From Prochlorococcus sp. AG-402-K16 (GTDB taxonomy: Bacteria > Cyanobacteriota > Cyanobacteriia > PCC-6307 > Cyanobiaceae), in NCBI GenBank assembly GCA_003216795.1, contig QCIH01000003.1, positions 1 to 64,000 of the forward strand: 64,000 nt of DNA, read 5' to 3'. Shown here in pieces: positions 11,001 to 53,337 of this stretch (position 1 is the stretch's first letter; every line of letters starts with the position of its first letter). The notes beneath the pieces were generated by a model. That model had not been told where the DNA came from, searched no databases, and saw nothing but the letters and a program-made list of their open reading frames with translations. Both the position numbers and the translations under genes were made by a program.

Positions 11001-13264
11001 CCTGTAAGTTTTGTCCATTGAATATTTCCACTCGAATCAAATTTACTTATAAAGCCACTGTAGTGATAATCATTAATTTGACCGCCTAGATCACCCGTAG
11101 TTCCCCCTGCAACATAAATAGAACCATCATCACTAATTTTTATCAATTCCGATTCATCATATTTGCTGGAACCAAACATCTGAGTCCACAAGTTTGTTCC
11201 ATCTGAATTGTATTTAGCAATAAAGCCGTTACTACTTCCCTGATTTTCTTGCGCTATTTGTAATCTCTGATCATAAAAAAAAGTACCTTCTGTTCTACCT
11301 GTAACGTAAATAAACCCATCTTTATCAACCGTTATTGCATCGGCCTCATCATATTGATAGCTGTTTATTAATTGGGCCCATTCCTTTGTTCCATCTGAAT
11401 TGTATTTACTAATATGTCCAGCACCTTGATGAGCGTCTCCTGTGCCTAAAATACCTTCTTCTGTATCTCCGGTTACGTAAATAGAACCGTCTTGAGCAAC
11501 AACAACACCCTCTATATCGTCATCAGAGGAACCTCCTAAGAGTTTTGTCCATTTCCTATCACCTGTTGAATCATATTTAATAATGAATCCCTCTCGCGAA
11601 CCAAAATTAGGAATCGATTGATCATTAAATTCACGAACACCCCAACCACTCGAATCTTCTCCTCTTGTAGATCCAACAACATAAACGGAACCATCACTAC
11701 TTATTGAAATATCTTCTGCTGAAAACTCCCAATCACCTTCTACCGTTGATTTATCAGTAGCGGATTCTCTCCAGATTTCATTACCGTTAATATCATGTTT
11801 GACAAGGATTCCAGGTCCTTGAGTTCCGTCTTGATATCCCCAACCATAAATATAATCACCATGAATAGCTAAGCTATAAAGATCTAAGTAATGTCTGCCA
11901 GTACCATGATTTTCTGACTCTTCTGAATCTAATGTTTTAATCCAGTTTCCCTCAGGATTTCCTCTGAATTCTCCTCCTGAAATATTTCCCACAGAAGGAG
12001 GTTCTGATGGTGTGGGGGGAACATAAGCATTCGCAGCAGATGTCTCCCAGCTGTAATTTAAAGTGCCAGTTCCATCCGGGTCAGCAGAATCTTCAGCAAT
12101 ACTTAAAGTATTCCCAACTGCTGCTGTTCCGGTGATAGAAAAACTGGCATCACCATCATCTACATAAGGAATTGTAGAAATGGAAGTAATAACGGTTTCA
12201 TCAAAACCTTGAGCATCTTGATAAGAAATTACTGCCCTTATAGATTTTCCTTCTTCACTAGCACCTACTGTATAAGTTGCATTTGTTCCAACTGGACTCC
12301 AAGTGGAATTATCTGTAGATGTTTGCCAGCTGTAATTTAAAGTGCCAGTTCCATCCGGGTCAGCAGAATCTTCAGCAATACTTAAAGTATTCCCAACTGC
12401 TGCTGTTCCGGTGATAGAAAAACTGGCATCACCATCATCTACATAAGGAATACTAGAGGTAGAAGTAGTTACTGTTTCATCAAAACCTTGAGCATCTTGA
12501 TAGGAAATTACTGCTCTTATAGATTTTCCTGCTTCACTTGCTCCTACTGTATAAGTTGCATTTGTTCCGACGACACTCCAGTTGGAATTATCTGTAGATG
12601 TTTGCCAGCTATAACTTAAAGTTCCTGTACCGTCAGGGTCAGCAGAATCTTCACTAATACCTAAAGTATTTCCGACTGCTGCAGTTCCAATTATTGAAAA
12701 ACTTGCATCTCCTGAGTCAACTCTTAGATTATCAAAATAACTATATGCTCCTCTTCCATAACGCCAGTTTGCACCAACTCTAATGGTTAAAGAATGTGTA
12801 CCTATATCAAGGAGTTTTGATCCCCCCATAGACCAACCCCATAATTGCCCTTCTCTGGCAGCCGTGCCATGACCATCTAAATTTTCACCATTAACTAATA
12901 AATTATGGTTTATACCATATTTATTTTCTAAGAATGTAGCTGCATAAGCAAAATTATCTACATTAAAAACATAGGTCCCTTCTTCACTAACATTAAATTC
13001 TTGAGTTAAGTCTATATATTGGTATTCATTACTATCCCCATTGTCATATCCATATATTTGAAGAGCGGATCCATCTATTTCAGGCGAACCATAAGATAAA
13101 TAATTTGAATTATCGATGTAACTAAGCGCATTTGTATAATCTGGCTCTACAATTTCATATCCTTCATAACTTACGGTTGAATTAGATGTTGTTAATGTCC
13201 AACCAGAAAGATCATTGAAATCTTTATTGTTAATTTGAATCTTTGATGATGGAGTAGACACCAT
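8069..13264 (-). CDS. RTX-type secreted modular protein with Ig-like repeats and a duplicated SBBP-type beta-propeller module (1731 aa)
   Basis: It starts at ATG 13264 with no signal peptide. Residues about 1-185 are a beta-rich domain ending in YFDNLRVDSG. Then come 93-residue Ig-like repeats (AAVGNTLSIAEDSADPDG, TYTVGASE, IRAVISYQDAQGFDETV). A 436-residue module appears twice, identically, at about residues 406-1278. It is built of SBBP-like propeller repeats (DGSIYVTG, KYNSDGT.W). The interrupted Ig-like repeat then resumes. The C-terminal part carries RTX-type glycine-rich calcium motifs (YAGKGDDLI, YAGEGNDSI, YGGDGDDTL, WGGEGADVF) and a serralysin-like tail. This fits a type I secretion substrate acting at or beyond the cell surface. 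No secretion genes are seen nearby. GC is higher than in the polysaccharide region. The ligand is unknown. Confidence 0.88.
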   Translation of the reverse strand: MVSTPSSKIQINNKDFNDLSGWTLTTSNSTVSYEGYEIVEPDYTNALSYIDNSNYLSYGSPEIDGSALQIYGYDNGDSNEYQYIDLTQEFNVSEEGTYVFNVDNFAYAATFLENKYGINHNLLVNGENLDGHGTAAREGQLWGWSMGGSKLLDIGTHSLTIRVGANWRYGRGAYSYFDNLRVDSGDASFSIIGTAAVGNTLGISEDSADPDGTGTLSYSWQTSTDNSNWSVVGTNATYTVGASEAGKSIRAVISYQDAQGFDETVTTSTSSIPYVDDGDASFSITGTAAVGNTLSIAEDSADPDGTGTLNYSWQTSTDNSTWSPVGTNATYTVGASEEGKSIRAVISYQDAQGFDETVITSISTIPYVDDGDASFSITGTAAVGNTLSIAEDSADPDGTGTLNYSWETSAANAYVPPTPSEPPSVGNISGGEFRGNPEGNWIKTLDSEESENHGTGRHYLDLYSLAIHGDYIYGWGYQDGTQGPGILVKHDINGNEIWRESATDKSTVEGDWEFSAEDISISSDGSVYVVGSTRGEDSSGWGVREFNDQSIPNFGSREGFIIKYDSTGDRKWTKLLGGSSDDDIEGVVVAQDGSIYVTGDTEEGILGTGDAHQGAGHISKYNSDGTKEWAQLINSYQYDEADAITVDKDGFIYVTGRTEGTFFYDQRLQIAQENQGSSNGFIAKYNSDGTNLWTQMFGSSKYDESELIKISDDGSIYVAGGTTGDLGGQINDYHYSGFISKFDSSGNIQWTKLTGAYVSSLEIGGNDSIYITGSTQAGNAYISLFNSEGDLISSEEFSSIEDINTHSIQDLTVSSDGSILFTGGSNGTSYLARYNANSSDSWETSAANAYVPPTPSEPPSVGNISGGEFRGNPEGNWIKTLDSEESENHGTGRHYLDLYSLAIHGDYIYGWGYQDGTQGPGILVKHDINGNEIWRESATDKSTVEGDWEFSAEDISISSDGSVYVVGSTRGEDSSGWGVREFNDQSIPNFGSREGFIIKYDSTGDRKWTKLLGGSSDDDIEGVVVAQDGSIYVTGDTEEGILGTGDAHQGAGHISKYNSDGTKEWAQLINSYQYDEADAITVDKDGFIYVTGRTEGTFFYDQRLQIAQENQGSSNGFIAKYNSDGTNLWTQMFGSSKYDESELIKISDDGSIYVAGGTTGDLGGQINDYHYSGFISKFDSSGNIQWTKLTGAYVSSLEIGGNDSIYITGSTQAGNAYISLFNSEGDLISSEEFSSIEDINTHSIQDLTVSSDGSILFTGGSNGTSYLARYNANSSDSWETSSDNLSWNEVSTDSTYTVGASEDGKSIRAVISYQDAQGFDETVTTDSYSIPAINDGKASFSILSIIIDGIRIIENQVDPSTGVVIQELEQGIDQSEEINMNQLQTLSGGTSNTQPTETSTNLPIYAQPKGGADYVHFDSGSYVNGNGLQTYGREERSILLSNDLDLSSVSSTYISDDLKMGSTSDGVYKYGAKSTYTFENGKISDLKFSVQGKNSFHDVIVDVMAEGDPTRLPTLDIYLTDSSNGDAYFLQDTYSDYFGSLETQTDAFGRSYTPRYQNINALYAGKGDDLIDMTSTESRTLYDSSSRAGGGIATVYAGEGNDSILGSDGTVYGGDGDDTLIAHHNSSFWGGEGADVFGFLANPTDSITGSALSPEHQINDFESGIDKIIFYHKSSHASQLEVTRTEDSNIQWQYWNQGASSPSVGFLTLNMNGETWTESDIEFALVDPVIL
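9424..12055 (-). repeat. Exact-looking tandem duplication, unit 1308 bp (436 codons)
   Basis: Sequence from about 9424 is repeated with a 1308-base offset from about 10732 to about 12040. The word gatgtctcccagctgt occurs at the start, the junction and the end. The two translated copies are identical along all 436 residues, and every DNA stretch I compared matched. The unit is a multiple of three, so the frame is kept. The event is either very recent, under active gene conversion, or an assembly product. Confidence 0.9.
12050..12720 (-). repeat. Tandem 279-bp (93-codon) Ig-like coding repeats
   Basis: The segment encoding AAVGNTL recurs near 12112, 12391 and 12670, a period of 279 bases. The copies are nearly identical in DNA. 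A fourth unit is split: its first strand ends at YSWETS, then the two propeller modules intervene, and the rest (NLSWNEVS to QGFDETVTT) lies at about 9280-9425. Confidence 0.85.
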
Positions 13265-13359
13265 TTATTTATTCCTTAAAACAAAAAAAAGAATTAGGTC
13301 CTAGCTTCAAAAATAATCTTATTTGTAATTATTTTATATCGAATGTCAATTACCAATCA

Positions 13360-13715
13360 TCAGAAGCGTTTAGTAAATATCTTCAATCAATAACTCCACT
13401 ATCTTTTTTAGTAGCTAAATCATCTTTGCGAATGTACTGTACAATTTATTGTCTTTCTTCCATCAAAGTTTCAAATTCAATTATTAAATCTTGAATCTTT
13501 TTTGAGTTATTAGTGTTCCATTCAATATCTGTTAAGACTGTTGTTCTTCCACCAGTAGAAAATCTATAAACAATTTTTGTTAGTACTTTATTTTGCTTTT
13601 CTATTCCTTGTATTGACCAACCAAAACCATGTCTGGCTTTGATTTGTTGTCTTGTAAGTTCGACCCAATTTAAAGGTTTCATTTTGTAGCAACTTAAGAA
13701 TGTCCTTAAGTGCAT
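13360..13715 (-). pseudogene. Decayed N-terminal remnant of a tyrosine recombinase (integrase)
   Basis: The intact part (13446-13715) encodes 89 residues including ARHGFGWSIQG, KIVYRFSTGGRTTVL and DIEWNTNNSKKI. This resembles the arm-binding N-terminus of cyanobacterial and phage tyrosine recombinases, where a lysine/arginine-rich segment precedes a hydrophobic-I-x-W motif. After the TAA at 13446 the same frame continues with IVQYIRKDDLATKKDSGVID, and one frame shift later KIFTKRF, again like the linker of such integrases. No catalytic domain follows before the RTX gene. It lies just downstream of the 3' end of tRNA-Ala and is transcribed the same way, the usual integrase position. An alternative is a small real gene of unknown function. 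Family assignment is from motif memory only. Confidence 0.5.
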
Positions 13716-13819
13716 TTTAGGGTGCAGAATTGACTAAACAAGCTTGGACAAGTACGTACAAAAGTTATATCTTTACGAAAACGATCTCGAAATCCCTTAG
13801 TATGACTAGAAAAAATAAG

Positions 13820-13892
13820 TGGAGCCAAGCGGATTTGAACCGCTGACCCCCTGCATGCCATGCAGGTGCTCTACCAGCTGAGCTATGGCCCC
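13820..13892 (-). tRNA. tRNA-Ala (anticodon GGC)
   Basis: The minus strand folds into a complete cloverleaf of 73 nt: 7-bp acceptor stem with the G3:U70 wobble pair that marks alanine tRNAs, D arm TAGCTCAGCTGGTAGAGC, anticodon stem CCTGC/GCAGG around loop ATGGCAT giving anticodon GGC, T arm with GGTTCAAATCC, and discriminator A. CCA is not encoded. The integrase remnant and the high-GC repeat genes start just beyond its 3' end. Confidence 0.97.
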
Positions 13893-14257
13893 AAATCTCG
13901 AAACGTCAGTCATATCAATCAATTTAAAGATCTTTTTCATAACGTCCTTGATTACTATAATACTTTATAATGCTTTATTATTGAAATCTGTGCCAAAAAT
14001 GCACCTAGAGATTTACAAGTTGCAGCATGCTTTCTGAAGCTAATCTCGAGAAATTCCGCACATAGTTCAAAGGTTAGGTCGGTTAAGGGCTCACTTTGTT
14101 AGGAAGTAAAATTAAAGTTAGACTTATCACAAAAATATTTTTGAAATTTTTATATTAGTTAATTTAATGGGATTTTTTATAAAATAAACTTAGTTAAATT
14201 TCATAATTAGTTCATCAAGATATCATTATTCATTCTTGATTTATTCATTTATAGAAG
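13893..14257. other. 365-bp gene-free spacer upstream of tRNA-Ala and downstream of the SET gene
   Basis: It must hold the tRNA-Ala promoter (minus strand); TATAAT-like words lie near 13955-13975. About 14000-14110 is richer in G and C than the rest of the spacer and may be a gene remnant or small RNA, but no frame longer than about 25 codons was convincing. The remainder is AT-rich. Confidence 0.35.
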
Positions 14258-15256
14258 TTAAATTTCAGATTTGATTGATTTAATTTCATGTTGAAGTAAT
14301 TCTGAAAATTGTATTGAGGTTTTATTCTTTAGGGAATTTACTTCTTTTTTCATTATTTGCCTCATAGCAAGATTATATTCAATTATTTTCTCAATGAAGC
14401 TAGGGTGAATATTTATATCTTCTAGGGTCTCTAATATCTTGTCAAAATATTTAAAAGGATAATTTCTATTATTTTTAAACGCTATTGGTAAGCCATCAAT
14501 GATTACTTTGTTAGCGTCTCTTTTTACTGAAAAAGAATTATTATTAGTTTCGATGCCATTACAAATAAAAATAATATTTAAATCTTCAAGTTTGAATGAA
14601 AAAGGAAATGAAAACACATTTGGTTCTAGGCTAAAAAATTTATATTGAAAAAGACGCTTTATTGAACTTTGATTTTTGTAGTTAATAGTAAGCTCATTAT
14701 TACTAGGAGGGAAATAAGGCGAAGAAATACCTTCTTTGCCGGCAAAAAATTTGGGAGAATCCATTTGATGATTTAAAAGATCAAGAAATGGGCAAATCAT
14801 ATTTGAATCCTTGATCTTAAACTTTCTCGTATCTAAAAATGATTTAAGTAATATATTGTTCCATGATCCTTTGTGCCTTTTATCAATATCTATTAATAAA
14901 AAATTTCTAAGTAAAATTCTAATTGTCGAATTAAATGAAATTAAATCCTTTTCAAAAGAATCTAAATCTTGCTGAATTTCTTCACTCCAACACAATTCAT
15001 CTAGATATAAATTTATAAAATTAATTAGTTCTTTATCATAAGTCTTATTATTTTTCTTTATTGATAATTTGTTATTGATTAAATTTATATCATTAACATC
15101 TATCATGAGATTATAAGGAACAAATATACTCGATTTCAAATTAGGATTTATTGAAAATATCCCTCGACCATAATTCCCCCTTTTCAGTTGTATATTTTCA
15201 ACCTTGCCTCCTAATTTTCTAAATTGATAAATTAAATAATTACAGTTTTGATTCAT
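14258..15256 (-). CDS. SET-domain protein methyltransferase (Rubisco LSMT/SETD3-like)
   Basis: The 332-residue product has the split-SET signature of the Rubisco large-subunit methyltransferase/SETD3 group. Near the N-terminus is NYGRGIFSINP, the SAM-binding G-x-G-x-[FY] region, and in the middle is ICPFLDLLNHQ, matching the family's D-x-x-N-H motif. The C-terminal helical part is Lys/Asn-rich. The predicted activity is lysine or histidine N-methylation of a protein substrate that cannot be named. It is divergent from the flavoprotein gene at 15331, sharing a 74-bp upstream region. Composition is typical of the AT-rich genome rather than the left block. Confidence 0.75.
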   Translation of the reverse strand: MNQNCNYLIYQFRKLGGKVENIQLKRGNYGRGIFSINPNLKSSIFVPYNLMIDVNDINLINNKLSIKKNNKTYDKELINFINLYLDELCWSEEIQQDLDSFEKDLISFNSTIRILLRNFLLIDIDKRHKGSWNNILLKSFLDTRKFKIKDSNMICPFLDLLNHQMDSPKFFAGKEGISSPYFPPSNNELTINYKNQSSIKRLFQYKFFSLEPNVFSFPFSFKLEDLNIIFICNGIETNNNSFSVKRDANKVIIDGLPIAFKNNRNYPFKYFDKILETLEDINIHPSFIEKIIEYNLAMRQIMKKEVNSLKNKTSIQFSELLQHEIKSIKSEI

Positions 15257-35211: not shown

Positions 35212-36387
35212 TTAGGTAGATTTTTTTTGATTTATTTCTTTAATTAATGATCCATAACTATAAATAATAAAAATAATTGGGAAAATAACAGAAGCTGTTT
35301 CAAATATCCAATAAATTAACATTTGTATAGTTAAGCATGATAGGAAAAAAGCATTTTTAGTTTTAAAAATATATTTAGTAGAAAAAATAAATATTCTTAT
35401 AAAAATTAAGTGATATATAATTGAAGACAATAATCCATATCTAATTCCAAAGTAAATATAATTACTATGAATTGAACCTAGTCCATAAGTTGATATTACA
35501 TTATCGTTTACTCCTGCAATATTATTCAACAAAAATTCTATACCTAAGGACCATAATACAAACCTGCCATTTGTATAATCATCGTTTTTTAGCATAAGAA
35601 ATGAATTTCCTATTAACTTTTGAAATAAATTATCAAATAAACCAAATGCGAAAAATATCAAAATAATAATAAAAGCAATTAAAATATTTTTATTAATTTT
35701 AAGATTTTTTAATTTTAGGTAAAATTCTTTAAATTCAGAATCACTCCTCTTTTTGATCAAAAAAGTTATTGAATAAAAGATCAAAGTAACTAATAAAAGA
35801 ATGACAATTATTCTGCTATTACTAATAATCGAAAAAGTAAACATATTTAATAAGAAAAAGTATGTATAAAATTTAAACTTTTTAAAAATATTGTATTCTG
35901 GTGAAAAAAATGTAATTAGAACGCTTATAAACATAAAATAACAGAATCTTCCTGATTGATTAGGATTTATAAATAGCCCTCCAAATCTATATGATGTAAA
36001 CCCATACTTTATTATTCCTATAAAATTAATTGCTAATGCAAATATTGAAATAGGAAATAGTAAATTAGATATACTTAATGTTGAATAATTTTTTCCTAGT
36101 GAATATGTGAGAATAAAAAATACTGAAAATGCAAGGGTATTTATAAGTCTTATCGTCCCAAAATCATAAGTATTAAAAAATGTTAATAAGGGCAATAAAA
36201 ATAATGATCCATTAATTAACTGATCATTTAAAAAAATAGAAAATTTATATGATTTTTGAAATAAACATAAAATCAATGCAAATAGTATAAAAATTTCAAA
36301 AATATTAGCAGATTCAAAAATACCAAATTGAATAATATTCGCTATTATTAATCCTATAGTTAATAAATCATTTTTTGAATAATTCAT
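35212..36387 (-). CDS. O-antigen polymerase/ligase-type polytopic membrane protein (Wzy/WaaL candidate)
   Basis: The 391-residue product is almost wholly hydrophobic with about 10-12 membrane segments. There is a larger polar loop near residues 255-310 (GNSFLMLKNDDYTNGRFVLW), where Wzy/WaaL proteins have their periplasmic loop; N-G-R-x-x-L-W is common there. Together with Wza and Wzc at 40-44 kb it completes a Wzy-dependent pathway. Polymerase and ligase cannot be told apart by eye. Spacer 36388-36669 (282 bases, AT-rich) separates it from the divergent pseB. Confidence 0.65.
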   Translation of the reverse strand: MNYSKNDLLTIGLIIANIIQFGIFESANIFEIFILFALILCLFQKSYKFSIFLNDQLINGSLFLLPLLTFFNTYDFGTIRLINTLAFSVFFILTYSLGKNYSTLSISNLLFPISIFALAINFIGIIKYGFTSYRFGGLFINPNQSGRFCYFMFISVLITFFSPEYNIFKKFKFYTYFFLLNMFTFSIISNSRIIVILLLVTLIFYSITFLIKKRSDSEFKEFYLKLKNLKINKNILIAFIIILIFFAFGLFDNLFQKLIGNSFLMLKNDDYTNGRFVLWSLGIEFLLNNIAGVNDNVISTYGLGSIHSNYIYFGIRYGLLSSIIYHLIFIRIFIFSTKYIFKTKNAFFLSCLTIQMLIYWIFETASVIFPIIFIIYSYGSLIKEINQKKST

Positions 36388-38930: not shown

Positions 38931-40223
38931 GTGATTAATTTTAAATCTAAGAAGCGATTTTATAGACCAACCTTATTTTTCTATTATTTTAGTAAAAATA
39001 TTATTTGGAGTTCTTTTCTAATTATTAAAGAGGAAAAGGCCTTTCCTCAATTAGTCTTTATTAATGTAGAAAATATAAAAACTAATAATATTAGTATGGA
39101 TATTCATAAAAATAATAAGATTTCTAGGAGTAAAAAAATAATTAAAGATTTAATTTTAAATTTTTTAAAAATTTTTATTCTCGAAATCAAATTAAATAAT
39201 ACAAAGTTAATCGATGTTTATCCTGAAAAAAATATAAAGATTATGAATTTAATAAAAAGTATTTTTGAAAATAATCTCGCATTTGAGGAAAAAAGTATTT
39301 TTAAAGCTTCTTATACAAAGCCCTCAAAAAAAGAAATTAATTCATTATATAGTTCATTTTTGATTGGTGAAAAATATAGATCATTTTTTTTAAATCGGAA
39401 GAAATTTATTTTTAATGGGAGATATGCCCCAGTCTATTGTTTTACTAAGGGATTAATTAATTTCGATGATACAGAAATTAATAGAATAGAGTTGAATTTT
39501 AAAAATAATAAAAAGCATATATTTTCAACAAATGAATTATGGAAGTGTGGAATGGTTAAATATGTCGAATCAAAATATAAAATTTCAAAAGATTTATCTT
39601 ATTTTGAAAAAAGAAGGAATGCTACTTCGGGCTTGGATTACGGAGGTAATAAGATTGTTATTAAAAAAAATCCTTTTGATACAGATAAATTTGATATTTC
39701 TTTATTTTTAAGTTCTCCATACGAATTTGTTGGATTACAATATAGTTCTAGAGAATCAATGAATATATTTAAAAATGCGTTTCGGGAAATTATAAAATTT
39801 CAAAATTTAGGATATAGTTGTTCTATAAGGCAGCATCCTTTTTTTAGAAATAGCAATCTTCTTGATCATAAATTATTTAATAAGTGGTTTAGAATTTTGA
39901 AAAATGAAGGGGTATCAATTTTTGATTTTGATTCAAATATATCTAGCTATAAATTAATAGATAATACTAAAATTATTTTTACAATCGGAAGTTCAATAGG
40001 AGGAGAATCTTCCTTTATGAATAAACATACTTTTGATTTTAATAAATATTCATTCCCTCACTATTTTAAAATAGTTGATAAATATGATTTTGATGAAGTA
40101 AAACAATTACTAGAAAATTACAAAAATAAAATTAAATTTAACAAATTTAAACTTAATGATTTTTATAGGTTTGCAAGCTTTTATTCAGGTTGTGGTTATA
40201 GAATACCTAGGTTCCTTTTATGA
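38931..40223 (+). CDS. Probable glycosyltransferase of capsule-synthesis type, diverged (430 aa)
   Basis: GTG start three bases after the WecA-like stop. The protein is basic and Lys/Asn/Phe-rich with no membrane segment. The C-terminal region, YSCSIRQHPFFRNSNLL, then FTIGSSIGGESSFMNKHTF, resembles the HPxE and S-S-x-x-x-E segments of the Kps/CMP-sugar-using capsule glycosyltransferase fold. FVGLQYSSRESMNIFKNAF precedes them. This suggests a GT-B transferase, possibly adding the second sugar after WecA. The assignment rests on those short motifs only. Confidence 0.45.
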   Translation: MINFKSKKRFYRPTLFFYYFSKNIIWSSFLIIKEEKAFPQLVFINVENIKTNNISMDIHKNNKISRSKKIIKDLILNFLKIFILEIKLNNTKLIDVYPEKNIKIMNLIKSIFENNLAFEEKSIFKASYTKPSKKEINSLYSSFLIGEKYRSFFLNRKKFIFNGRYAPVYCFTKGLINFDDTEINRIELNFKNNKKHIFSTNELWKCGMVKYVESKYKISKDLSYFEKRRNATSGLDYGGNKIVIKKNPFDTDKFDISLFLSSPYEFVGLQYSSRESMNIFKNAFREIIKFQNLGYSCSIRQHPFFRNSNLLDHKLFNKWFRILKNEGVSIFDFDSNISSYKLIDNTKIIFTIGSSIGGESSFMNKHTFDFNKYSFPHYFKIVDKYDFDEVKQLLENYKNKIKFNKFKLNDFYRFASFYSGCGYRIPRFLL

Positions 40224-43813: not shown

Positions 43814-44269
43814 ATGAGAAATAATATTTCCAAGATTAATTGGATTTTGATTAATCGGTTTGCAATAGGCCCTCAGCCAAGTAACACATCAGATTTAAAT
43901 TTTCTAAAACAGAATAATATAAGGACTATATTTTCAGTTTGTTATGAGGATGAGATATTAATTCCAAAGGAAATAAAAGAATTTTTCAATCATAACGTTT
44001 GTAGCCTTCCTGATCATAAGAAAGGATATTTACCTACTAAAAAAGAAATAAATAAAACTATATTAATTCTTCATGATTTAATTTCTTTAGGTCCAGTTTA
44101 TATTCATTGTTTTGCAGGGGTAGAAAGATCACCTCTGATCTCAATGGCATATTTAATTAAATTTAGAAATTTAAAACCGCAACAGGCTTTAGATTATTTA
44201 ATGCAAGTTCATCCAGGTACTAATCCTCTAACAAATCAATTAAATTTGCTTAGTAAAATAAATAGTTAG
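43814..44269 (+). CDS. Dual-specificity-type protein tyrosine phosphatase
   Basis: The 151-residue product has VYIHCFAGVERSPLIS, the C-x5-R-S loop with Cys99, and LPDHKKG with Asp67 as a candidate general acid. This is the DSP/VH1-like class, not the low-molecular-weight Wzb class normally paired with Wzc. It lies 7 bases after the Wzc gene, so it probably dephosphorylates the Wzc tyrosine tail. Its stop overlaps by 4 bases the end of the convergent nucleotidyltransferase gene. Confidence 0.8.
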   Translation: MRNNISKINWILINRFAIGPQPSNTSDLNFLKQNNIRTIFSVCYEDEILIPKEIKEFFNHNVCSLPDHKKGYLPTKKEINKTILILHDLISLGPVYIHCFAGVERSPLISMAYLIKFRNLKPQQALDYLMQVHPGTNPLTNQLNLLSKINS

Positions 44270-45489
44270 CTTAGGAAATTAGAATTTTTTATAAATAATT
44301 TTAAATCAGATATTAATCTTTTTGTTTGATCAAGTATTGCTTGAAGTAAATTCTTATCTTTTCCTGTAATAGGATCATTAAAAGATGAGGGCAATAATAT
44401 AAACCCTAAAATAATTCTGAATTTATCTTTAAAATTATTTGTAATTCTAAGGTTTTTTTGAAAAATATCTTTATAGTCCCAAAAATTAAGTTTAGAATTT
44501 TTCATTTTTTTATTAAAAAATTTAATCTGACTTTTTCTAGAGATTTTTATTATTTTTTTTATATTCGGATTAGATTTATTGTGTTTTAAAAAATATGAAA
44601 TATATTGCGAATTAGTATAAAAGTAACATAAATCTAGGGTGTCTTTCATTAATGCATTAATTTTAAAGTCATTTTTATTATGAGTTATTATTTTTTTTAC
44701 TAGTAAATTAATATCGATTATGTTCTTTAAGCTATCCCAATTTCCTTTAGCTGAGTTGTAGCAGGCATATACTAATGAATCCCTAATGCCTAGGGTGTAA
44801 ATTTCTTGTCCACCGATAACATAAGACTCTTTCTTTTGCCATGCCTCTTCAAAATTGGGTAAATCATATCTACTTTTACAAAGCGACCAATGTAAATCAA
44901 TAATTTGTTTTTGATTAAAAATTGTTCTTTTTAATGGTAATTCATTTCTTACTTTTAAAGAGTATCTGCCACTTGCAGATTTTAAATCTTTAGGTAAATA
45001 TCCATAAACTCTATCGAAACCATTAATTTTTAGTAAGTTAATTACCTCAATAATATTTTCTTCTTTTACAAAGATATCGATATCCCCACAGCCTCTTGAA
45101 GATAATTTATTAGTAATTTGCAAAGAGAGAGGAATACCTTTGAATATTAAAATAGGTATTTTTTCAGAATGAAAAATTTTAGATAAATTTTTAATAGTAT
45201 TTGCAATAATTAAAGAACCAATTTTTTCTTCTCTCGCAATTTTACTGATCTCATTTCTCAATTCAGGTAGATATTTATCTAAGCTTTTATATTCACTAAA
45301 GAAAATAATTAATCCTTGATTTTTTAAGAATTTAAGAAGTTCATATTTAGAATAATTAGTAAATTTATTTTTTAAATAAAAAAATTTTCTCTTATAAGAT
45401 TTATTATTATTGCCTAGAATAATCCTAAGAATATAAATTGTAATTTGTTGATAATAACTTTGTTCCATTTTTTTTAATGAAATCATCAA
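44266..45489 (-). CDS. NTP_transf_5-family nucleotidyltransferase, last gene of the lasso operon
   Basis: The 407-residue product has IPILIFKGIPLSLQI (Lys-Gly motif) followed by SSRGCGDIDIFVK, whose Asp136/Asp138 pair is the metal site, and RTIFNQKQIIDLHWSLC with the D-L-H-W motif. This is the NTP_transf_5 family. In lasso clusters of the pseudomycoidin type, such an enzyme acts on the phosphorylated C-terminal Ser and transfers sugar or nucleotide units. It is the promoter-distal gene of a minus-strand run with HprK-like kinase, precursor, cyclase and exporter, so a tailoring role is likely. The end overlaps the phosphatase gene by 4 bases. Confidence 0.75.
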   Translation of the reverse strand: MMISLKKMEQSYYQQITIYILRIILGNNNKSYKRKFFYLKNKFTNYSKYELLKFLKNQGLIIFFSEYKSLDKYLPELRNEISKIAREEKIGSLIIANTIKNLSKIFHSEKIPILIFKGIPLSLQITNKLSSRGCGDIDIFVKEENIIEVINLLKINGFDRVYGYLPKDLKSASGRYSLKVRNELPLKRTIFNQKQIIDLHWSLCKSRYDLPNFEEAWQKKESYVIGGQEIYTLGIRDSLVYACYNSAKGNWDSLKNIIDINLLVKKIITHNKNDFKINALMKDTLDLCYFYTNSQYISYFLKHNKSNPNIKKIIKISRKSQIKFFNKKMKNSKLNFWDYKDIFQKNLRITNNFKDKFRIILGFILLPSSFNDPITGKDKNLLQAILDQTKRLISDLKLFIKNSNFLS

Positions 45490-45535
45490 ATTAAGAGAAG
45501 ATTTTTACTTAATTTTCATGATTTATTTGATCTTA

Positions 45536-47185
45536 TCAATCTATATTATTTAAATCTATTACTTTAGTCGCTAAATCAACTAATTTTGAATCATGAGTAG
45601 CAATTATAGTTATTTTATTTTTTGATCTTTCTTTGATTATTCTCTTTACAATGGATACTGAATCTTCATCTAGATATACGGTAGGTTCGTCAAGTATCTC
45701 TATATTTTTATTTTTAAACCAAGCTCTTATAAGACAGATTCTCTGAATCTCACCCCCAGAAAGAAAATCAGTTGTTAAATTTACTCTCTGATTTAATCCT
45801 TTATTTTTTACTAATAAATGTAAAAGATTTAATTGAGAAAACCATTTATTTATTAAAACATCATTTCTATTTAAATATTCTAGATCGTTATAATTATCCG
45901 TTTGCATAGTTATGTTCTCCCTTAGACTACCCTCGTACAAAATCCCTTTCTGTGGGGCATATGCTATTAAATTTTTTAATTTATTTGAATCTCTTATTCC
46001 TTTAAAAATTAATTTATTGTTTTTATTTATTAAATTCCATTTACTTGATTGTGGATTATTAAAACCCAATAAACTATCAATTAAAGTTGTTTTACCAGAA
46101 CCTGAGTCTCCTCTTATTATAAGAATTTCTCCTGAATTCAGAGAAATTTCCTTATTTTTTTCTGATGAAAACCAAGTAAATTTTTTAATTAAAGGAGATT
46201 TTCTAAAAAATATATTTTCTAGAATAATGTCGTCTGATTGAAGTTGCCTTTTTATCTTTTTATATTTTTCATAACCTGGCAAAGCTAATTTAACTCTTCT
46301 ATATGAGCTTATTATTAAACTCAGGGAGTTAGTGCATTTTAAACCAAAAACAATTGTTGCAGCTATTGTTTTATAATCTTTATTATTGCTATTGAACAAC
46401 CAAATACCAATAATAATTAATATAAATAAATCCCTGAATAAATCGAATATACCTTGTCTTTTTATATTTTGTCGAAGTATAGATCTATATTCTGTATTGT
46501 CATTAGTGAACCTTTCCATTATCCAATTTTCTGCTGATGCAGCTTTAATACCTTTTAAGCCATGCAAGCTATCTCCAAGAGTTCTTTGTAAGTCTATATT
46601 AAGTTTGCTTTCTAGATTGCCTAATTCTGTACTTTTTGATCTTTGAAATATTGCTGCAAGTAAAGTAGCTATTGAAGCAAAAAATATTATTATTAATGAA
46701 TTTTTAGTAAATATATTAAGAACTAAGAAATAAATAAAAAATGAAAGAAGTCCATTTAAAGAGGCAATTGATTGATCAAGGCTTATTATTGCTCCATTTA
46801 TATTATTTATCAATGATCCTAGAATTTCAGCTCTATTAATGTTTTTTAATTTATCAAAACTTCCGAAAATTGTATCTTTTAATAAAGATTGCCTAAGTGA
46901 ATCTTTAAATTCTGATCGTATTGATTCTTTTAAAATGGATACTATAAGTCTAATTATTCCTCTCATAAAAAGAAGAACTATTAATGTTAAGACCTTTTTT
47001 GAAATATCAAGGTTACTATTTGTAATTACTTCCGAATAAGAAGAATTAAATAAAATACCTATAGCAGTGCTTAGGCTGAAAAACTCTAAAATTGTTGAAA
47101 TTGCATTCAAAGATATTAATAATAAAAAAATATTTAAACCTGCTTCATCTATTATTTCTTTCAATAAATTAAAGGTTTTGCTCAT
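45536..47185 (-). CDS. ABC exporter of the lasso cluster (D protein)
   Basis: The 549-residue fused transporter has an N-terminal membrane domain of about 300 residues. The ATPase carries IRGDSGSGKTTLIDSLLG (Walker A), AYAPQKGILYEGSLRENI (Q-loop), DFLSGGEIQRICLIRAWF (signature), NIEILDEPTVYLDE (Walker B) and IATHD (H-loop). No N-terminal C39 peptidase domain is present, as in lasso D proteins, where a separate B2 protease cleaves the leader. It sits between the hydroxylase and nucleotidyltransferase genes. It should export, and confer immunity to, the mature peptide. Confidence 0.82.
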   Translation of the reverse strand: MSKTFNLLKEIIDEAGLNIFLLLISLNAISTILEFFSLSTAIGILFNSSYSEVITNSNLDISKKVLTLIVLLFMRGIIRLIVSILKESIRSEFKDSLRQSLLKDTIFGSFDKLKNINRAEILGSLINNINGAIISLDQSIASLNGLLSFFIYFLVLNIFTKNSLIIIFFASIATLLAAIFQRSKSTELGNLESKLNIDLQRTLGDSLHGLKGIKAASAENWIMERFTNDNTEYRSILRQNIKRQGIFDLFRDLFILIIIGIWLFNSNNKDYKTIAATIVFGLKCTNSLSLIISSYRRVKLALPGYEKYKKIKRQLQSDDIILENIFFRKSPLIKKFTWFSSEKNKEISLNSGEILIIRGDSGSGKTTLIDSLLGFNNPQSSKWNLINKNNKLIFKGIRDSNKLKNLIAYAPQKGILYEGSLRENITMQTDNYNDLEYLNRNDVLINKWFSQLNLLHLLVKNKGLNQRVNLTTDFLSGGEIQRICLIRAWFKNKNIEILDEPTVYLDEDSVSIVKRIIKERSKNKITIIATHDSKLVDLATKVIDLNNID

Positions 47186-47289
47186 TTTATAAATTAATTA
47201 TTTTCATTGTTATTAGATTAAGTTGATTATGATCTAATCAATAACTTTAACTAATAATTCTATATTGATTTTGAAATTTCACCATTTTA

Positions 47290-47838
47290 TTACCTAGTGA
47301 TAATTATATTACAAGTAATTCGCCAATAATTTAATTCATCATTTTTTACAAAACCTCCATTGTGTTTAGTATTTGATTTAAAAATTACAAACCTGCCAGG
47401 CTTGTAGTCTAATTTCTTATCATTTATCATTAATTCGCCTCCATCATTTTGATCCCATACAGGGTTTAAAAAACCTAAAATTGTCCAGTCAGATGTATCA
47501 GTAGAATCAACGTGGTCAAAAGTTTTTGAGTTACTTGATTTAGCACCAATGTGTATTCTTTTAATTTTATTAGGAAGATATAAATTATATTTATTTTTTA
47601 AATCTTTTTTTAACCTAAAAATTATAGATTGAAAGTAACCTGATAAGTATTTTATGTTAATAGTCTCATTTGATTGTATTTCAAGTCCTGGAAAACCTGT
47701 AAATGCTAATCGACCTGCTCCGTCATTCAATGATGATCGTGTTAAAGACCAATTGGGAGTATCTAGTAACTTATGATATAACCAAAGCAACTCTTCAACT
47801 CCTAGGATATTGTCTACTATGTAAAAATCTTTATCCAT
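47290..47838 (-). CDS. 2-oxoglutarate/Fe(II) hydroxylase (prolyl-4-hydroxylase-like), lasso tailoring candidate
   Basis: The core fold has FDHVDSTDTSDWTILGFLN (H-x-D), QNDGGELMIND, KPGRFVIFKSNTKHNGG (distal His) and YWRITCNI (2-oxoglutarate Arg). I place the start at ATG 47838, just after the cyclase stop (47850). The frame is open upstream to a TTG at 47874, which would add 12 residues and overlap the cyclase. The product is about 182 residues. The gene follows the cyclase, so the likely target is the lasso peptide; the precursor has no Asn/Cys and only one Pro, in the leader. Confidence 0.72.
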   Translation of the reverse strand: MDKDFYIVDNILGVEELLWLYHKLLDTPNWSLTRSSLNDGAGRLAFTGFPGLEIQSNETINIKYLSGYFQSIIFRLKKDLKNKYNLYLPNKIKRIHIGAKSSNSKTFDHVDSTDTSDWTILGFLNPVWDQNDGGELMINDKKLDYKPGRFVIFKSNTKHNGGFVKNDELNYWRITCNIIITR

Positions 47839-47849
47839 AACAAATTTTT

Positions 47850-49388
47850 TTATTTCTCTAACTCTATTAGCCAATGATTAATTTTATCAATTTTGTTTAT
47901 TAACCAACAAACATTATTCAAATAATTAAAATCTTCATTATTTTTTAGTAGAGATTCTATGTTTGAAGTCAATAAGTTTAAATCAAACCATTTATGTATA
48001 AGGTTATGCCATCTGGAAATTGATTTATGACTTTCGTTCAAAATATTTTTTAAGATTATTCGACGATTTTCAATATCATCTTTACCAATATGTTTTTGTG
48101 GATTTCTTATAAAAAATTCATTTAAATATGGTTTAAAAACTTCTCTGATTAATGATCTGAGTTCTTTCGAATTTGTTGCAAAAATCTTTGTATTTTCTAT
48201 TGATAACAATAAAGATATGATATTTTCATCAAGCATTGGGTATAATTTTTTCATGCCATAATATTCTGCTAATCTTTTTTCCTCTTCTACTCTTAATGAT
48301 AACCAGTTCGAATTTAGAGATTTTCTGATGCTTTCTTGCACCTTTAAATTATTATATCTTTCTAAATTATCTGAAGCAGGAATATAGTTTTGTAGATATT
48401 CAAAACCTTCATTTGTAAGAAACTTTTTTACATAATAAGACTGACTATTTCTCGGGTATTTAAGAAATTTCTGAAAATTTTTAAATCTTTTAAACCAATA
48501 ATCATTAATATTTTTTTTAAAAATTATTTTTAAGGCATCTTTTTTACTGCCTGTCCATTTAAGTAGCTCACTAAAATTTCCTTTTTCAAATAAATCTATA
48601 CCAACGTTATTGCCCATGTTACTGAGTGCTTGATCACCCCCTAACCCGCTAAATATAAGTTCACAATTTGCTTCCTTTAGACTCTTTAATCCTGCTAAAT
48701 TTGCTCCTACTTGTAATGGTGCTCCAAATATCTTTAATAAATTTTTATCTTCGTTTTTATTATTTTTAATATCTTTTTTTAAACAATTCTTAGAAAATAG
48801 TTTATAAAAATCTCTTATGTCTTCAATTAATTTCAAATTTTCTCCTTGTGGAGAAGTCCAAGTGAAAATGCGATCTTTTTTAATATTTAATCCCAAAACT
48901 AAGCTTCCAACTATTGCGTTTGAGTCTATTCCTGAACTATGTTCACAACCTAAATTTCCATCAACATTTTTGAGATTGTTTTTTAGATTATTTAAAAAAG
49001 TATTTCTGATATTCAAATATATTTCTTGTTCATTAATATATTCATTATTAGTTTTTAAAAAAGGATTATAGGACTTAAGTTTAATATTATTATTTTTACT
49101 TAATTGAACAAAGCAAGATCTTGGAATTCTCTTGATTCTTTGGTAGGGAGAGATATTTGTACTGTGGTTATTGAATAATATTGATGCAATGTATGCTGGA
49201 TTGACATCCTTTATTTGTGCGTCTTCATGCATTCCATATGCCTCTTCCCATGATTTCAAGATATATCCTTCCTCATTGTCATAATGCTTTTTTGATGGGT
49301 ATGCTTGGAAAAGAGGTCTTAAATTTAGATAATCAGTTTTATATATGCCAGTTTCTAGAGGTTTTGGCTCTTTACTTGGTAATTTCAT
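47850..49388 (-). CDS. Lasso cyclase, asparagine-synthetase-like (C protein)
   Basis: The 512-residue product resembles asparagine synthetase B. The ATP-pyrophosphatase loop is GCEHSSGIDSNAIVG (residues 147-161), a variant of S-G-G-x-D-S. Then come FSGLGGDQALSN (residues 246-257) and LAEYYGMKKLYPMLDENIISLLL near residue 360. The N-terminus starts MKLPSKEP and lacks the Cys2 of a glutaminase domain, as in lasso cyclases, which activate a side-chain carboxylate and form a macrolactam instead of using glutamine. It lies between B2 protease and hydroxylase, in the canonical lasso neighbourhood. Confidence 0.82.
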   Translation of the reverse strand: MKLPSKEPKPLETGIYKTDYLNLRPLFQAYPSKKHYDNEEGYILKSWEEAYGMHEDAQIKDVNPAYIASILFNNHSTNISPYQRIKRIPRSCFVQLSKNNNIKLKSYNPFLKTNNEYINEQEIYLNIRNTFLNNLKNNLKNVDGNLGCEHSSGIDSNAIVGSLVLGLNIKKDRIFTWTSPQGENLKLIEDIRDFYKLFSKNCLKKDIKNNKNEDKNLLKIFGAPLQVGANLAGLKSLKEANCELIFSGLGGDQALSNMGNNVGIDLFEKGNFSELLKWTGSKKDALKIIFKKNINDYWFKRFKNFQKFLKYPRNSQSYYVKKFLTNEGFEYLQNYIPASDNLERYNNLKVQESIRKSLNSNWLSLRVEEEKRLAEYYGMKKLYPMLDENIISLLLSIENTKIFATNSKELRSLIREVFKPYLNEFFIRNPQKHIGKDDIENRRIILKNILNESHKSISRWHNLIHKWFDLNLLTSNIESLLKNNEDFNYLNNVCWLINKIDKINHWLIELEK

Positions 49389-49403
49389 GATCTGAAATTT
49401 TTA

Positions 49404-49805
49404 TTAATTAAAATAATTTTCTGAGGCAGGCGATAAATTTATATTTTTATTTGGATCATTTAACCAACAATGACAATTGATTTCTCCAAGTTTTGTTTTT
49501 TCAGCTCCAAAGCATATTACATTTGGAATTGCTAGTAAATCTAGGAAACATTGCCCAGTAATTGATCTACTTAAGCATGTACTCATATTTTGATTTAATG
49601 AGCTTTTTTTATTTAATATTTTTATTATTATTTTTTTACAAAATAATTTTCTTTTTTCATTTAATCTTATTTGAAAACGTTTAATAGGTCTTTTTTGTAT
49701 GAGTTTTAAGATTACTTTCCCAGGTAAAATTTGTATTAGTAGCCAGAAGTTGAAGTCAATAAATTTAAATATTAAATAGATTAATTTTCTTATAAAGTAT
49801 TTCAT
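49404..49805 (-). CDS. Lasso leader peptidase (B2, transglutaminase-like)
   Basis: The 133-residue product has the B2 pattern. STCLSRSITGQCFLDLLAI supplies the catalytic Cys77, INCHCWLND carries His112 (usual form H-A-W) and Asp117 follows in the family position. The N-terminal 45 residues are basic and hydrophobic, as in split B2 proteins. It should cleave the leader of the peptide encoded at 51309-51464. It begins 15 bases after the PqqD-like stop, and ends 15 bases before the cyclase start. Confidence 0.85.
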   Translation of the reverse strand: MKYFIRKLIYLIFKFIDFNFWLLIQILPGKVILKLIQKRPIKRFQIRLNEKRKLFCKKIIIKILNKKSSLNQNMSTCLSRSITGQCFLDLLAIPNVICFGAEKTKLGEINCHCWLNDPNKNINLSPASENYFN

Positions 49806-49820
49806 ATACTTTTATAGTAT

Positions 49821-50078
49821 TTAAACGCTTTCAATCATTTTCAAATTTAAACATTGTGATATGAAATCTTTTGTTTCCAATTCACAAGTTTCTTTATCAA
49901 TATCAAATTCCTCTAATAGGTTATTTATTAGATAACTAATAGAAAAAGTTTCATCTATTTGTTTCCAAATAAAGGATCCTGTAGAGTTTAAATTTAAGTA
50001 TTTAGCTGTTTCAGTATGAAAAAGACATATCTCTCCATCTAATTCTGTAGATAATACACTCTTAGACTTTTGGTACAA
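49821..50078 (-). CDS. PqqD-like RiPP recognition element (lasso B1)
   Basis: The 85-residue product has the PqqD fold wording: LSTELDGEICLFHTETAKYL, NLNSTGSFIWKQID, ISYLINNLLEEFDID and CLNLKMIES. Stand-alone proteins of this kind bind RiPP leaders and hand them to the B2 protease and cyclase. It lies in the B1-B2-C order typical of split lasso systems. The short length is normal. Confidence 0.87.
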   Translation of the reverse strand: MYQKSKSVLSTELDGEICLFHTETAKYLNLNSTGSFIWKQIDETFSISYLINNLLEEFDIDKETCELETKDFISQCLNLKMIESV

Positions 50079-50112
50079 GTTAAATAAAATACATTTTTTA
50101 TATAATAATGTA

Positions 50113-51285
50113 TTATTTTTTATTTAGCAAATCTAAAATTTGGGGGATTAATATATTGAAATTTGGATTGCCTTCAAGGAGAATCGGCTCATTTTTTGTT
50201 GGGATCCAGTCCCATGCGACTTTATTTATTTCTGGCAATCTAGAATGCATTTCAATCGAAGCATTTAAACAACTTTTTATATTTACATTTCTGCAGTTGG
50301 GTTCTTTCTCTTGATTAGTCCATTTATCGATTATGTATTGGTGAGATATATTATTAATTTTGTTGGAATTTATGTTAAAGAATTTTTTTGAAAAATAATC
50401 AATAAAATAAATTTTTTTGTCAAGACATATTTCAATCCAGCAGTTATCAACTTTTATTTCGATATTCGATAATTTCTTTTGAGTTATTACTCTTATAACT
50501 GCTGATGGACTACTCCATGCTAAAGAATAATCGTTTTTTATATATGGCATTAATATCGCATTAGTTTTATTCTTTGTAGTCTTCTGCCAGTGACTGTAAA
50601 GTGCATTAAGATCTTTATAATTGATATTTAAATATTTATATTTAGTCCCTGCGGAATTACAGAATAAATTACTTGCAAATAGTTTGTTATCAAATAATCT
50701 ATATAAAATTATGTCTTTAGATTTTGAACCATTATCTGGTTTTAAAATAAGACCTGTTACTTTTAAATATGGTAAGATTTTGTTCTTATAAAATTGATTT
50801 AAAAAAACATCTTTTTGTTTTTCTTTACTATTATTTAAAACTATGTGATATGGCTTCCATTTATTTGGGGAAATTTTATAGAGTGAGCTTTTGTTATTAA
50901 GTAAATTTATTCCTTCTTTACAATTATTTGACCAATATTTCCTCTCTTCTTTATTAATATACTTTACCATTTTATAGGGTTTAAAATTTTTTAACTCTTC
51001 CCACGTTTTTATATTAAATCTAGAATAAATTTCTAATTCTTTTAATTCAAATGAATTGATTATGCAACTAAAAATAAGAAACTTTCTATCTATGTTGTAA
51101 TCAAATAAAAAATAAATATATTTAATTAAACGAGAAATTATCCATCTTATTAATAATAAGAATTCAATTGGGAAATATATTATATTTCTTTCACCATATC
51201 TGTATATAAATCTATTTTTTATGGATATGGCAATTGGAGATGGAGAATTAATATATCTTTTTAATTTTCTTAATATATCATTCAA
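50113..51285 (-). CDS. ATP-grasp enzyme of sugar-transfer-associated type
   Basis: The 390-residue product has VTGLILKPDNGSKSKDIILY (ATP-grasp nucleotide strand), then in the C-terminal half VAWDWIPTKNEPILLEGNPNFNI. E-G-N-P-x-x-N is the metal-binding strand of the sugar-transfer-associated ATP-grasp family. The N-terminal 120 residues hold hydrophobic segments and are unassigned. It sits between the precursor gene and the PqqD-like gene, 23 bases from the precursor stop, so it is probably a tailoring ligase of the peptide, or a leftover of glycan context. This family is not the graspetide ligase type. Confidence 0.6.
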   Translation of the reverse strand: MNDILRKLKRYINSPSPIAISIKNRFIYRYGERNIIYFPIEFLLLIRWIISRLIKYIYFLFDYNIDRKFLIFSCIINSFELKELEIYSRFNIKTWEELKNFKPYKMVKYINKEERKYWSNNCKEGINLLNNKSSLYKISPNKWKPYHIVLNNSKEKQKDVFLNQFYKNKILPYLKVTGLILKPDNGSKSKDIILYRLFDNKLFASNLFCNSAGTKYKYLNINYKDLNALYSHWQKTTKNKTNAILMPYIKNDYSLAWSSPSAVIRVITQKKLSNIEIKVDNCWIEICLDKKIYFIDYFSKKFFNINSNKINNISHQYIIDKWTNQEKEPNCRNVNIKSCLNASIEMHSRLPEINKVAWDWIPTKNEPILLEGNPNFNILIPQILDLLNKK

Positions 51286-51308
51286 ATATTTTAATTAATA
51301 TTGTTTAG

Positions 51309-51464
51309 TTAACTTCCAATAGTATCTGAAGTTTTCCCCTCTGTTTTTCTTCCTTCAAACACTCCTTCAATAAACTCACCTTTAGAATATGTATTTTTAA
51401 GTTCTAATGTATCAATAGATGGCTTGAACCATTTTCTTTTTTTCTTTTGATTAGAAAATTCCAT
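51309..51464 (-). CDS. Lasso peptide precursor (A), 51 residues
   Basis: A previously unmarked small gene from ATG 51464 to TAA 51309. The leader contains KWFKPSIDTLELKNT (residues 11-25), matching the lasso leader pattern of aromatic-x-x-P, hydrophobic spacing and a Thr near the cleavage site. The core follows: YSKGEFIEGVFEG (residues 26-38), then RKTEGKTSDTIGS (39-51). Acidic Glu33 and Glu37 are ring-closure candidates. If Thr25 is at position -2 the core starts with Ser27 and Glu33 is position 7; starting with Tyr26 gives Glu33 at 8; starting with Gly29 gives Glu37 at 9. The last residue is Ser, as in kinase-modified lasso peptides. It lies in the middle of a cluster with B1, B2, C and D genes. 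Too short for ordinary gene calling. Confidence 0.8.
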   Translation of the reverse strand: MEFSNQKKKRKWFKPSIDTLELKNTYSKGEFIEGVFEGRKTEGKTSDTIGS

Positions 51465-51518
51465 TTTCTTTTCAGTTCTATTCTAATATTACATCATGAT
51501 ATGTAATATACAATATTA

Positions 51519-52427
51519 TCATGTATAACTATATTTTTCTAAAGTCTCTTTAAAATTAGATGTAATATTTTTATATTCGTTTGGAGAAAGTTTTTCTTTA
51601 CCTTCTCCCAATATACCAGATCTAAAAAAACTATTACATGAATCTGGTCTCTCACTAAATCCATATTTACTTTCAATTTTTTTAAGCCTTTTGAAATCAG
51701 CATTAATCATTGTCTTAGATATTAATTCTTCATCAATAGGCAATCTGATAAATTTTAAAATTCGTTTAAAGAAAATTCTTGGATTTGTGTGAAGGTCTTC
51801 ATATTTAAGGACTAAAATAGGTATTTTCTTTTGTTCCGTCCAACTTTTAACGTGATGTTCCCATGTACCAAGAAATTGATAAACTTGCTTATGAATTTTA
51901 TCTTTGTTCCCAGCTAATGAAGCCTTTTTATTCACTAAAAATTTGACTGAATCAGTGTATGATATGTTCAGAAAATTGCTTAAAGAGATTGCAATATCTG
52001 CAGGATGTCTAATTAGATAAATGACGCCGGCGCAATTTTCATATGGAACTAAATAATTTTTTTTGTTAGATATCTTATAGAAACTATCATGAACTTTATG
52101 GTATCTAGGATTGTCATCGAAAATTTTCTTGTTTAAACCAATATGTATTCTTATCTTATCAAGTTCTTCTTTAGTTAAATCACTACTATCAATTCCTAAT
52201 TGATCATCAATCCAACTCCTATTGCTTAAAATTAGCCCAGTGTCTAATTGAATGTTATTCTCCTCAACAATCTCATCTTTATTTTTTTTAGCTTTAACTA
52301 AGTTAATATATGTTGCTATTAATATCCTGCACCAAGTATTACCTGATCGAGGATAGCTTGCAATATACCAATAATCAATCTCTTCTTGGCCTTTAAAATG
52401 ATTTTTATCTAATTTTGAATTTATCAA
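51519..52427 (-). CDS. PAPS-dependent sulfotransferase, lasso tailoring candidate
   Basis: The 302-residue product has IASYPRSGNTWCRILIATY, the 5'-phosphosulfate loop, and CAGVIYLIRHPADIAISLSN, the 3'-phosphate motif with R-x-P, as in sulfotransferase domain 1 proteins. The start is TTG 52427, directly after the kinase stop; no early ATG exists. It is 54 bases upstream of the precursor gene. Substrate is inferred to be the peptide (Tyr26, Ser or Thr), but a glycan is possible because the locus is also a polysaccharide island. Confidence 0.72.
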   Translation of the reverse strand: MINSKLDKNHFKGQEEIDYWYIASYPRSGNTWCRILIATYINLVKAKKNKDEIVEENNIQLDTGLILSNRSWIDDQLGIDSSDLTKEELDKIRIHIGLNKKIFDDNPRYHKVHDSFYKISNKKNYLVPYENCAGVIYLIRHPADIAISLSNFLNISYTDSVKFLVNKKASLAGNKDKIHKQVYQFLGTWEHHVKSWTEQKKIPILVLKYEDLHTNPRIFFKRILKFIRLPIDEELISKTMINADFKRLKKIESKYGFSERPDSCNSFFRSGILGEGKEKLSPNEYKNITSNFKETLEKYSYT

Positions 52428-52428
52428 T

Positions 52429-53337
52429 TTAACTATTATCTATTAAATCAAATTTCTTTAAATCTTTTTTCATAACATTTATGTTATTGGGTAAGGATAA
52501 AATACTTACATTTAATGAGTTTTGCATATTAGTTATAGTTTGAAATGTAAATCCTTCTTTACCAAGACCTCTTACAAATCTAGGTCTAAATAGGTTATTT
52601 CTTAATCCAATAAATACGGCTTTTTGATTATCAATAGAGTGTTCTACTATTTTTGATTGTTTCTTGTTTACAAGTAGATATATTTTTTCTATTTTGATAG
52701 GTTTACTCATGTTGTAATTTTTTTTATCTACGAGGATATATTTATTGATTTTATTTCTAACTCGAGAAAGTTTGTCCGAATCTAATTTAAAAGCATCAAC
52801 AGCATCTTGCCAAAGCTTAATTCTTGGTATCCCTGGCAAAACTAAATTAGATTTAACTGCTACTAAGTCATCAGATATAAGATCCCAACCTATTTCAGTT
52901 AAAGCATAAGCCAATGTGCTTTTACCTGCTCCAGATTCCCCTAGACAAATTATTGCTTTTCCGTTTTTAGAGAGAGCATTGCCATGAAAAACAAGCGTCT
53001 TTCTTTGGATTAAAATTGAACCTAATCCAGATCCCAGTATTATATTAAGAATATCTCTATTAGGAATAGTAAGATGCTTATCCCAGGCGATCTTATTCCC
53101 ATTTGTTATTCTCAATGACCCAATCCCCTCAATAGTTAATCTGATTTCCTCTTTCGCAATTTTTATAAAATAAGTATCCTCCTTTGTCTCTTGTAATCTA
53201 GGCCATAAAGATGAATCTTCTTTTTTAACTTCAACATCTGGTTTGATTTTAGATTTTGTTTCTGGAAGGTCCGGAATTTCTAGATCTTCAGAATGTAAAA
53301 TAAGATTAAAAACTTTATATCTATATATTTTTGTCAA
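52429..53337 (-). CDS. HprK-like serine kinase of the lasso cluster
   Basis: The 302-residue product has FHGNALSKNGKAIICLGESG (strand plus P-loop start), GESGAGKST at residues 133-141, WDLISDDLVAV with a D-D pair, and GIPRIKLWQDA. This is the HPr-kinase-like C-terminal domain in the form found in RiPP clusters. Paeninodin-type kinases of this family phosphorylate the C-terminal Ser of a lasso precursor, and the precursor here ends in Ser. The start is TTG 53337. It is the first gene of the minus-strand cluster. Confidence 0.8.
   Translation of the reverse strand: MTKIYRYKVFNLILHSEDLEIPDLPETKSKIKPDVEVKKEDSSLWPRLQETKEDTYFIKIAKEEIRLTIEGIGSLRITNGNKIAWDKHLTIPNRDILNIILGSGLGSILIQRKTLVFHGNALSKNGKAIICLGESGAGKSTLAYALTEIGWDLISDDLVAVKSNLVLPGIPRIKLWQDAVDAFKLDSDKLSRVRNKINKYILVDKKNYNMSKPIKIEKIYLLVNKKQSKIVEHSIDNQKAVFIGLRNNLFRPRFVRGLGKEGFTFQTITNMQNSLNVSILSLPNNINVMKKDLKKFDLIDNS

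Follow-up and report, generated by a model that had tools for sequence, protein, structure and literature searches.

Ten uninterrupted open reading frames with small gaps occupy the minus strand at positions 44266-53337 of the window, a 64,000-nucleotide stretch of contig C3 of Prochlorococcus sp. AG-402-K16 (genome 1.67 Mb, 92.5% complete). The original prediction had placed a complete lasso-peptide gene cluster here, with ten genes on one strand; the open reading frame list and the translations bear out every coordinate, with all frames intact. The gene names proposed from sequence agree with Pfam and NCBIfam searches, with the HPr kinase C-domain below cut-off and ATPgrasp_ST just below. 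The predicted 2OG hydroxylase gene is also present, but its start had been set at an upstream TTG and probably lies at the ATG at 47838. The ten genes and the adjoining phosphatase gene are as follows.

52429-53337, minus strand: HprK-like kinase; PF07475 (1.3e-6) and TIGR04352, HprK-related kinase A (1.1e-10), both below cut-off; P-loop GESGAGKST; kept in related clusters
51519-52427, minus strand: sulfotransferase, possible tailoring enzyme; PF00685 Sulfotransfer_1 (7.5e-20), over cut-off
51309-51464, minus strand: lasso precursor, 51 aa; WxxPxI leader, core from Ser27 (P+12) or Gly29 (P+14), C-terminal Ser; aligned with relatives
50113-51285, minus strand: ATP-grasp protein (ATPgrasp_ST-like); PF14397, 28.2 bits against a cut-off of 31.4
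49821-50078, minus strand: B1, PqqD-like leader-binding protein (RRE); PF05402 (2.2e-15); NF033536, 60.6 bits against a cut-off of 80
49404-49805, minus strand: B2, transglutaminase-like Cys protease, predicted to remove the leader; PF13471 over cut-off; NF033537, 31.5 bits against 33
47850-49388, minus strand: C, lasso cyclase, 512 aa, asparagine-synthetase-like without the glutaminase Cys; NF033535 (2e-9)
47290-47838, minus strand: 2OG-Fe(II) oxygenase, possible peptide hydroxylase; PF13640 2OG-FeII_Oxy_3 over cut-off; HVD...H...R residues in the translation
45536-47185, minus strand: D, ABC exporter without a peptidase domain; PF00005 ABC_tran (2.6e-20); conserved in related clusters
44266-45489, minus strand: NTP_transf_5 nucleotidyltransferase; PF14907 (1.7e-28); conserved in related clusters
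43814-44269, plus strand: dual-specificity phosphatase (DSP), neighbour; PF00782 (2.4e-13)

The cluster has a G+C content of 25%, versus 38% at window positions 1-13800. Its neighbours include wza-, wzc- and nucleotide-sugar genes as well as the DSP phosphatase, which confirms the surface-glycan setting originally described. G+C drops from 38% to under 30% at window positions 13819-14258, immediately beyond a tRNA-Ala gene, probably marking the edge of an island. Two glycan-island proteins, of 391 aa (35212-36387) and 430 aa (38931-40223), matched no Pfam family. The DSP phosphatase was rejected as a member of the lasso cluster, as it occurs in 34/265 genomes of the genus and probably belongs to the polysaccharide locus. 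It is nevertheless present in all four lasso carriers of the genus, with a chance probability of ~2e-4 given 34/265, and the cluster therefore favours one type of polysaccharide locus.

In searches with B1, B2 and the cyclase, named beforehand as a point on which the prediction would turn, lasso families outscored other families. B1 scored 57 bits against PqqD (Pfam cut-off 23), had lasso_PqqD_Bac as its best NCBIfam match and the lasso leader-binding protein TbiB1 (5v1u, 1.9e-10) as its best PDB match. B2 matched Transglut_core3 at 28 bits (cut-off 26) and fell 1.5 bits short of the cut-off for lasso_biosyn_B2 (NF033537), which its relative in locus L009 passes at 38.3 bits; Cys77 and His112 are where they had been predicted and are invariant in 7/7 B2 proteins compared. 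The best NCBIfam match of the cyclase is lass_lactam_cya (NF033535), far below that model's cut-off. Residue 2 of the cyclase is not Cys, confirming the predicted loss of the glutaminase Cys, and the SSGIDS loop is present. B2 and cyclase profiles had no match among PDB sequences, and the cyclase was settled by fold comparison instead: a structure model (pLDDT 86) matched TsnB9, beta-lactam synthetase, carbapenam synthetase and AsnB in Foldseek (3e-11 to 1.5e-5), and as modelled the protein has a beta-lactam-synthetase/AsnB fold without the glutaminase Cys. The exporter, too, is as first described, with no C39-type peptidase domain found in the Pfam search. None of four proteins tried with PADLOC matched a defence model. 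Taken together, positions 44266-53337 encode a complete split-B lasso-peptide gene set.

The cyclase was found in 4/266 genomes of the genus, carriers including the single cells Prochlorococcus sp. AG-347-M18 and AG-347-M23. All four genus clusters share nine genes, encoding the HprK-like kinase, sulfotransferase, precursor, ATP-grasp protein, B1, B2, cyclase, ABC exporter and NTP_transf_5 protein; the 2OG oxygenase gene is confined to the window cluster and was not found in the others. An apparent lack of B1 and B2 in genome G158 was rejected, as the DSP and wzc genes separate B1, B2 and NTP_transf_5 from the rest of the cluster. Among 400 genomes of the family, 22 matched, with nine strong matches in eight genomes. 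A contig search returned no loci with a single cyclase query and eight with a cyclase alignment; the alignment had no match among viral contigs, and thus gave no sign of phage carriage. Freshwater carriers include Synechococcus sp. UW140, a Cyanobium MAG and Lac Pavin MAGs. Most freshwater clusters also have HprK, sulfotransferase, B1, B2, exporter and NTP_transf_5 genes, and several have the ATP-grasp gene; neither a sulfotransferase nor an ATP-grasp gene was found in the stretch of locus L040 that was read. Gene arrangement varies among these relatives. In the single-contig 2.9 Mb genome G338 (L040, L100) the parts are scattered, with two precursors, exporter and cyclase together, B1-B2 ~31 kb away and three further PqqD-like genes elsewhere. 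One freshwater MAG (G397) holds two different clusters of this type, L009 (its contig C3) and L013 (C70). In genome G510, three precursor-like frames (L063:2922-3083, 3455-3610 and 5700-6041) follow one HprK-sulfotransferase pair, the third ending in Gln rather than Ser.

The precursor frame is conserved in relatives, as predicted, both in the three other genus genomes and in the freshwater relatives. A profile of nine precursors gave one match per genome in the four genus carriers, each at the cluster; the window match (7.7e-18) is the sole one in its genome. Across a set of 13 precursors (L064 scored by eye), the leader motif WxxPx(I/L) is shared, represented in the window by W12xxP15xI. Counting from the leader Pro, P+10 is Thr in 11/13 and P+12 is Gly, Ser or Thr in 13/13 precursors, the last residue is Ser in 11/13, and an acid occupies core position 9 (core from P+12) in 9/13. 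In the window precursor, Thr25 stands at -2 if Ser27 opens the core.

The ring-closing residue of the window precursor is not obvious. Known lasso rings close on Asp or Glu at core positions 7-9. From Ser27 the window core reads SKGEFIEGVFEGRKTEGKTSDTIGS, with acids at positions 4, 7 and 11; counted from the family-wide cleavage site it thus has no acid at 8 or 9, and only E7 within 7-9. A core starting at Gly29 would instead have a Glu at position 9. With one water lost, the calculated monoisotopic neutral mass of the core is 2640.303 Da from Ser27 and 2425.176 Da from Gly29. The precursor of the related Prochlorococcus locus L007 has acids at 4, 5 and 11 and none at 7-9, and the acids of L009 and L064 fall at 12 and 10, respectively. 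The freshwater L009 precursor (L009:20029-20205, plus strand) has a leader near-identical to canonical ones, but among its first 14 core residues only position 12 is acidic. EGRK...TIGS is common to the window and L007 precursors, and the two corresponding cyclases form a pair in the tree (85/90). The sequence leaves three solutions: the window and L007 precursors may be cut at P+14 (Gly29 or Thr, placing Glu at 9), the window peptide may close at E7, or rings may exceed nine residues. A P+14 cut would give the same spacing as in BsfA, in which the core begins 14 residues from the leader Pro, versus 12 in most precursors here; BsfA also has Ile at -2, as does the L005 precursor. Larger rings form part of a bolder proposal, which we regard as rather unlikely, for a picocyanobacterial subtype in which the compact cyclase would close rings above 7-9 residues (11 in the window, 10-12 in relatives) and the ATP-grasp protein would be a new kind of lasso-tailoring ligase, one that might couple the peptide to an amino acid or to the adjoining surface glycan. 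Lasso-like enzymes might instead make a RiPP other than a lasso peptide, namely a macrolactam that is larger or not threaded, or a linear phosphopeptide bound to the adjoining surface glycan; the L007, L009 and L064 acids at core positions 10-12, counted from the family-wide cleavage site, would suit this too. The distance of the cyclase clade from other lasso cyclases, the adjoining wza, wzc and DSP genes and the glycan-type tailoring enzymes point the same way, but most precursors place the acid at core 9 as canonical lasso peptides do, and B1, B2 and cyclase match lasso families first, making such a product quite improbable.

Lasso systems are not new in cyanobacteria, since B2 matched at E 1e-5 or better in 32/386 genomes of the phylum, and the literature agrees. 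In the tree, however, the picocyanobacterial cyclases (503-564 aa) split from five other cyanobacterial lasso cyclases (638-677 aa) at 100/100, the four genus cyclases grouping at 93/93. Other cyanobacterial lasso clusters (NF033535 type) share B1, B2 and HprK in the loci read, and in some cases cyclase, exporter or NTP_transf_5, and the 10-18 kb read in 11 such loci contained no relative of the window's sulfotransferase or ATP-grasp gene. By sequence, the clusters described here form a distinct picocyanobacterial lasso subtype, combining a compact cyclase with a sulfotransferase and an ATP-grasp protein.

Paeninodin and pseudomycoidin clusters of Bacillota, also among the closest known systems, share the split B1-B2, C, D, K and N genes and the C-terminal Ser, and some have a sulfotransferase gene; the counterpart of their nucleotidyltransferase N in all four genus clusters is an NTP_transf_5 protein, assigned by family. 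In contrast to these, the ATP-grasp gene is present in 4/4 genus clusters and a 2OG gene in the window, Trp replaces Tyr in the leader, the cyclase is compact and highly divergent, and the host is a cyanobacterium. As precedents, HPr-kinase homologues phosphorylate the C-terminal Ser of lasso peptides, PsmN places hexoses on that phosphate, and Bacillota clusters include sulfotransferase genes (PMC8498205, PMC9266682). By analogy, the C-terminal Ser of the precursor is the predicted substrate of the HprK-like kinase, and the resulting phospho-Ser that of the NTP_transf_5 protein, which would glycosylate or nucleotidylate it in the manner of PsmN. Since 11/13 precursors share the C-terminal Ser of paeninodin and pseudomycoidin, we infer a C-terminally phosphorylated and perhaps glycosylated product. 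Phosphorylated lasso peptides of Pseudomonadota and Bradymonadales (SyanK, BsfA/BsfK) likewise combine a kinase with split B proteins, but BsfK phosphorylates the internal Ser3 and not the C-terminal Ser (PMC10368454), whereas the C-terminal Ser is the candidate here; the kinase target in the window cluster is thus not certain. The canucin A cluster also contains a 2OG enzyme, CanE, which hydroxylates a core residue (PMC8498205, PMC9266682); because CanE acts on a C-terminal Asp and the window C-terminus is Ser, the 2OG target here must differ. The structure model of the ATP-grasp protein (pLDDT 68) found almost exclusively ATP-grasp enzymes (TTL, Ddl) among its best Foldseek matches, none below E 1e-3. 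At L005:7194-8363 (plus strand), the ATP-grasp reading frame continues without a stop for ~420 bases before its first ATG/GTG/TTG, which points to a different start codon or to an error.

The position of the cluster inside a glycan island, and the naming of ATPgrasp_ST for sugar transfer, could mean that the kinase, sulfotransferase, ATP-grasp and NTP_transf_5 genes are part of the adjoining polysaccharide locus and leave the peptide unmodified. We give this little credence: across four divergent clusters of the genus and most of the freshwater clusters, these genes stay with the lasso core and are often interspersed among its genes, and lasso clusters from other phyla also contain HprK, NTP_transf and sulfotransferase. 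A decaying, horizontally acquired cluster without a product would fit the low-G+C island (25%) and rarity in the genus (4/266) but is highly improbable, as frames are intact in four divergent clusters and catalytic residues and precursors are conserved.

Very probably, in our view, the locus directs the biosynthesis of a lasso peptide of the paeninodin/pseudomycoidin type. In this lasso pathway, B1 would bind the 51-residue precursor at its WxxPxI leader and hand it to B2, which would cut two residues after a Thr; the AsnB-like cyclase would then adenylate a core Glu and join it to the freed N-terminus, yielding a threaded lariat. Prior to cleavage and cyclisation, the HprK-like kinase would phosphorylate the C-terminal Ser, after which the NTP_transf_5 protein would add a sugar or nucleotide to the Ser phosphate. 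The sulfotransferase and ATP-grasp protein may catalyse further tailoring steps, including a putative sulfation, with optional hydroxylation by the 2OG enzyme, and the ABC protein would export the product.

Prochlorococcus, the ocean's most abundant photosynthetic cell, has a small and streamlined genome, and lanthipeptides (prochlorosins) are its best-known ribosomal peptides. No such cluster was described in the titles, abstract openings and text excerpts of literature pairing lasso peptides with Prochlorococcus or picocyanobacteria, and Prochlorococcus is an unexpected host for this known type of system. The cluster brings sulfotransferase and ATP-grasp enzymes, as well as a compact cyclase, all of which can be assayed with their cognate precursors, and poses a sharp question on the permitted size of lasso rings. 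Given how few genomes of the genus carry the cluster and how strongly its sequence has diverged, contact-dependent or diffusible antagonism, or signalling, between close relatives is a likely function. That a few members of the genus maintain a complete, conserved cluster including four or five tailoring genes implies a costly peptide kept for cell-cell interaction.
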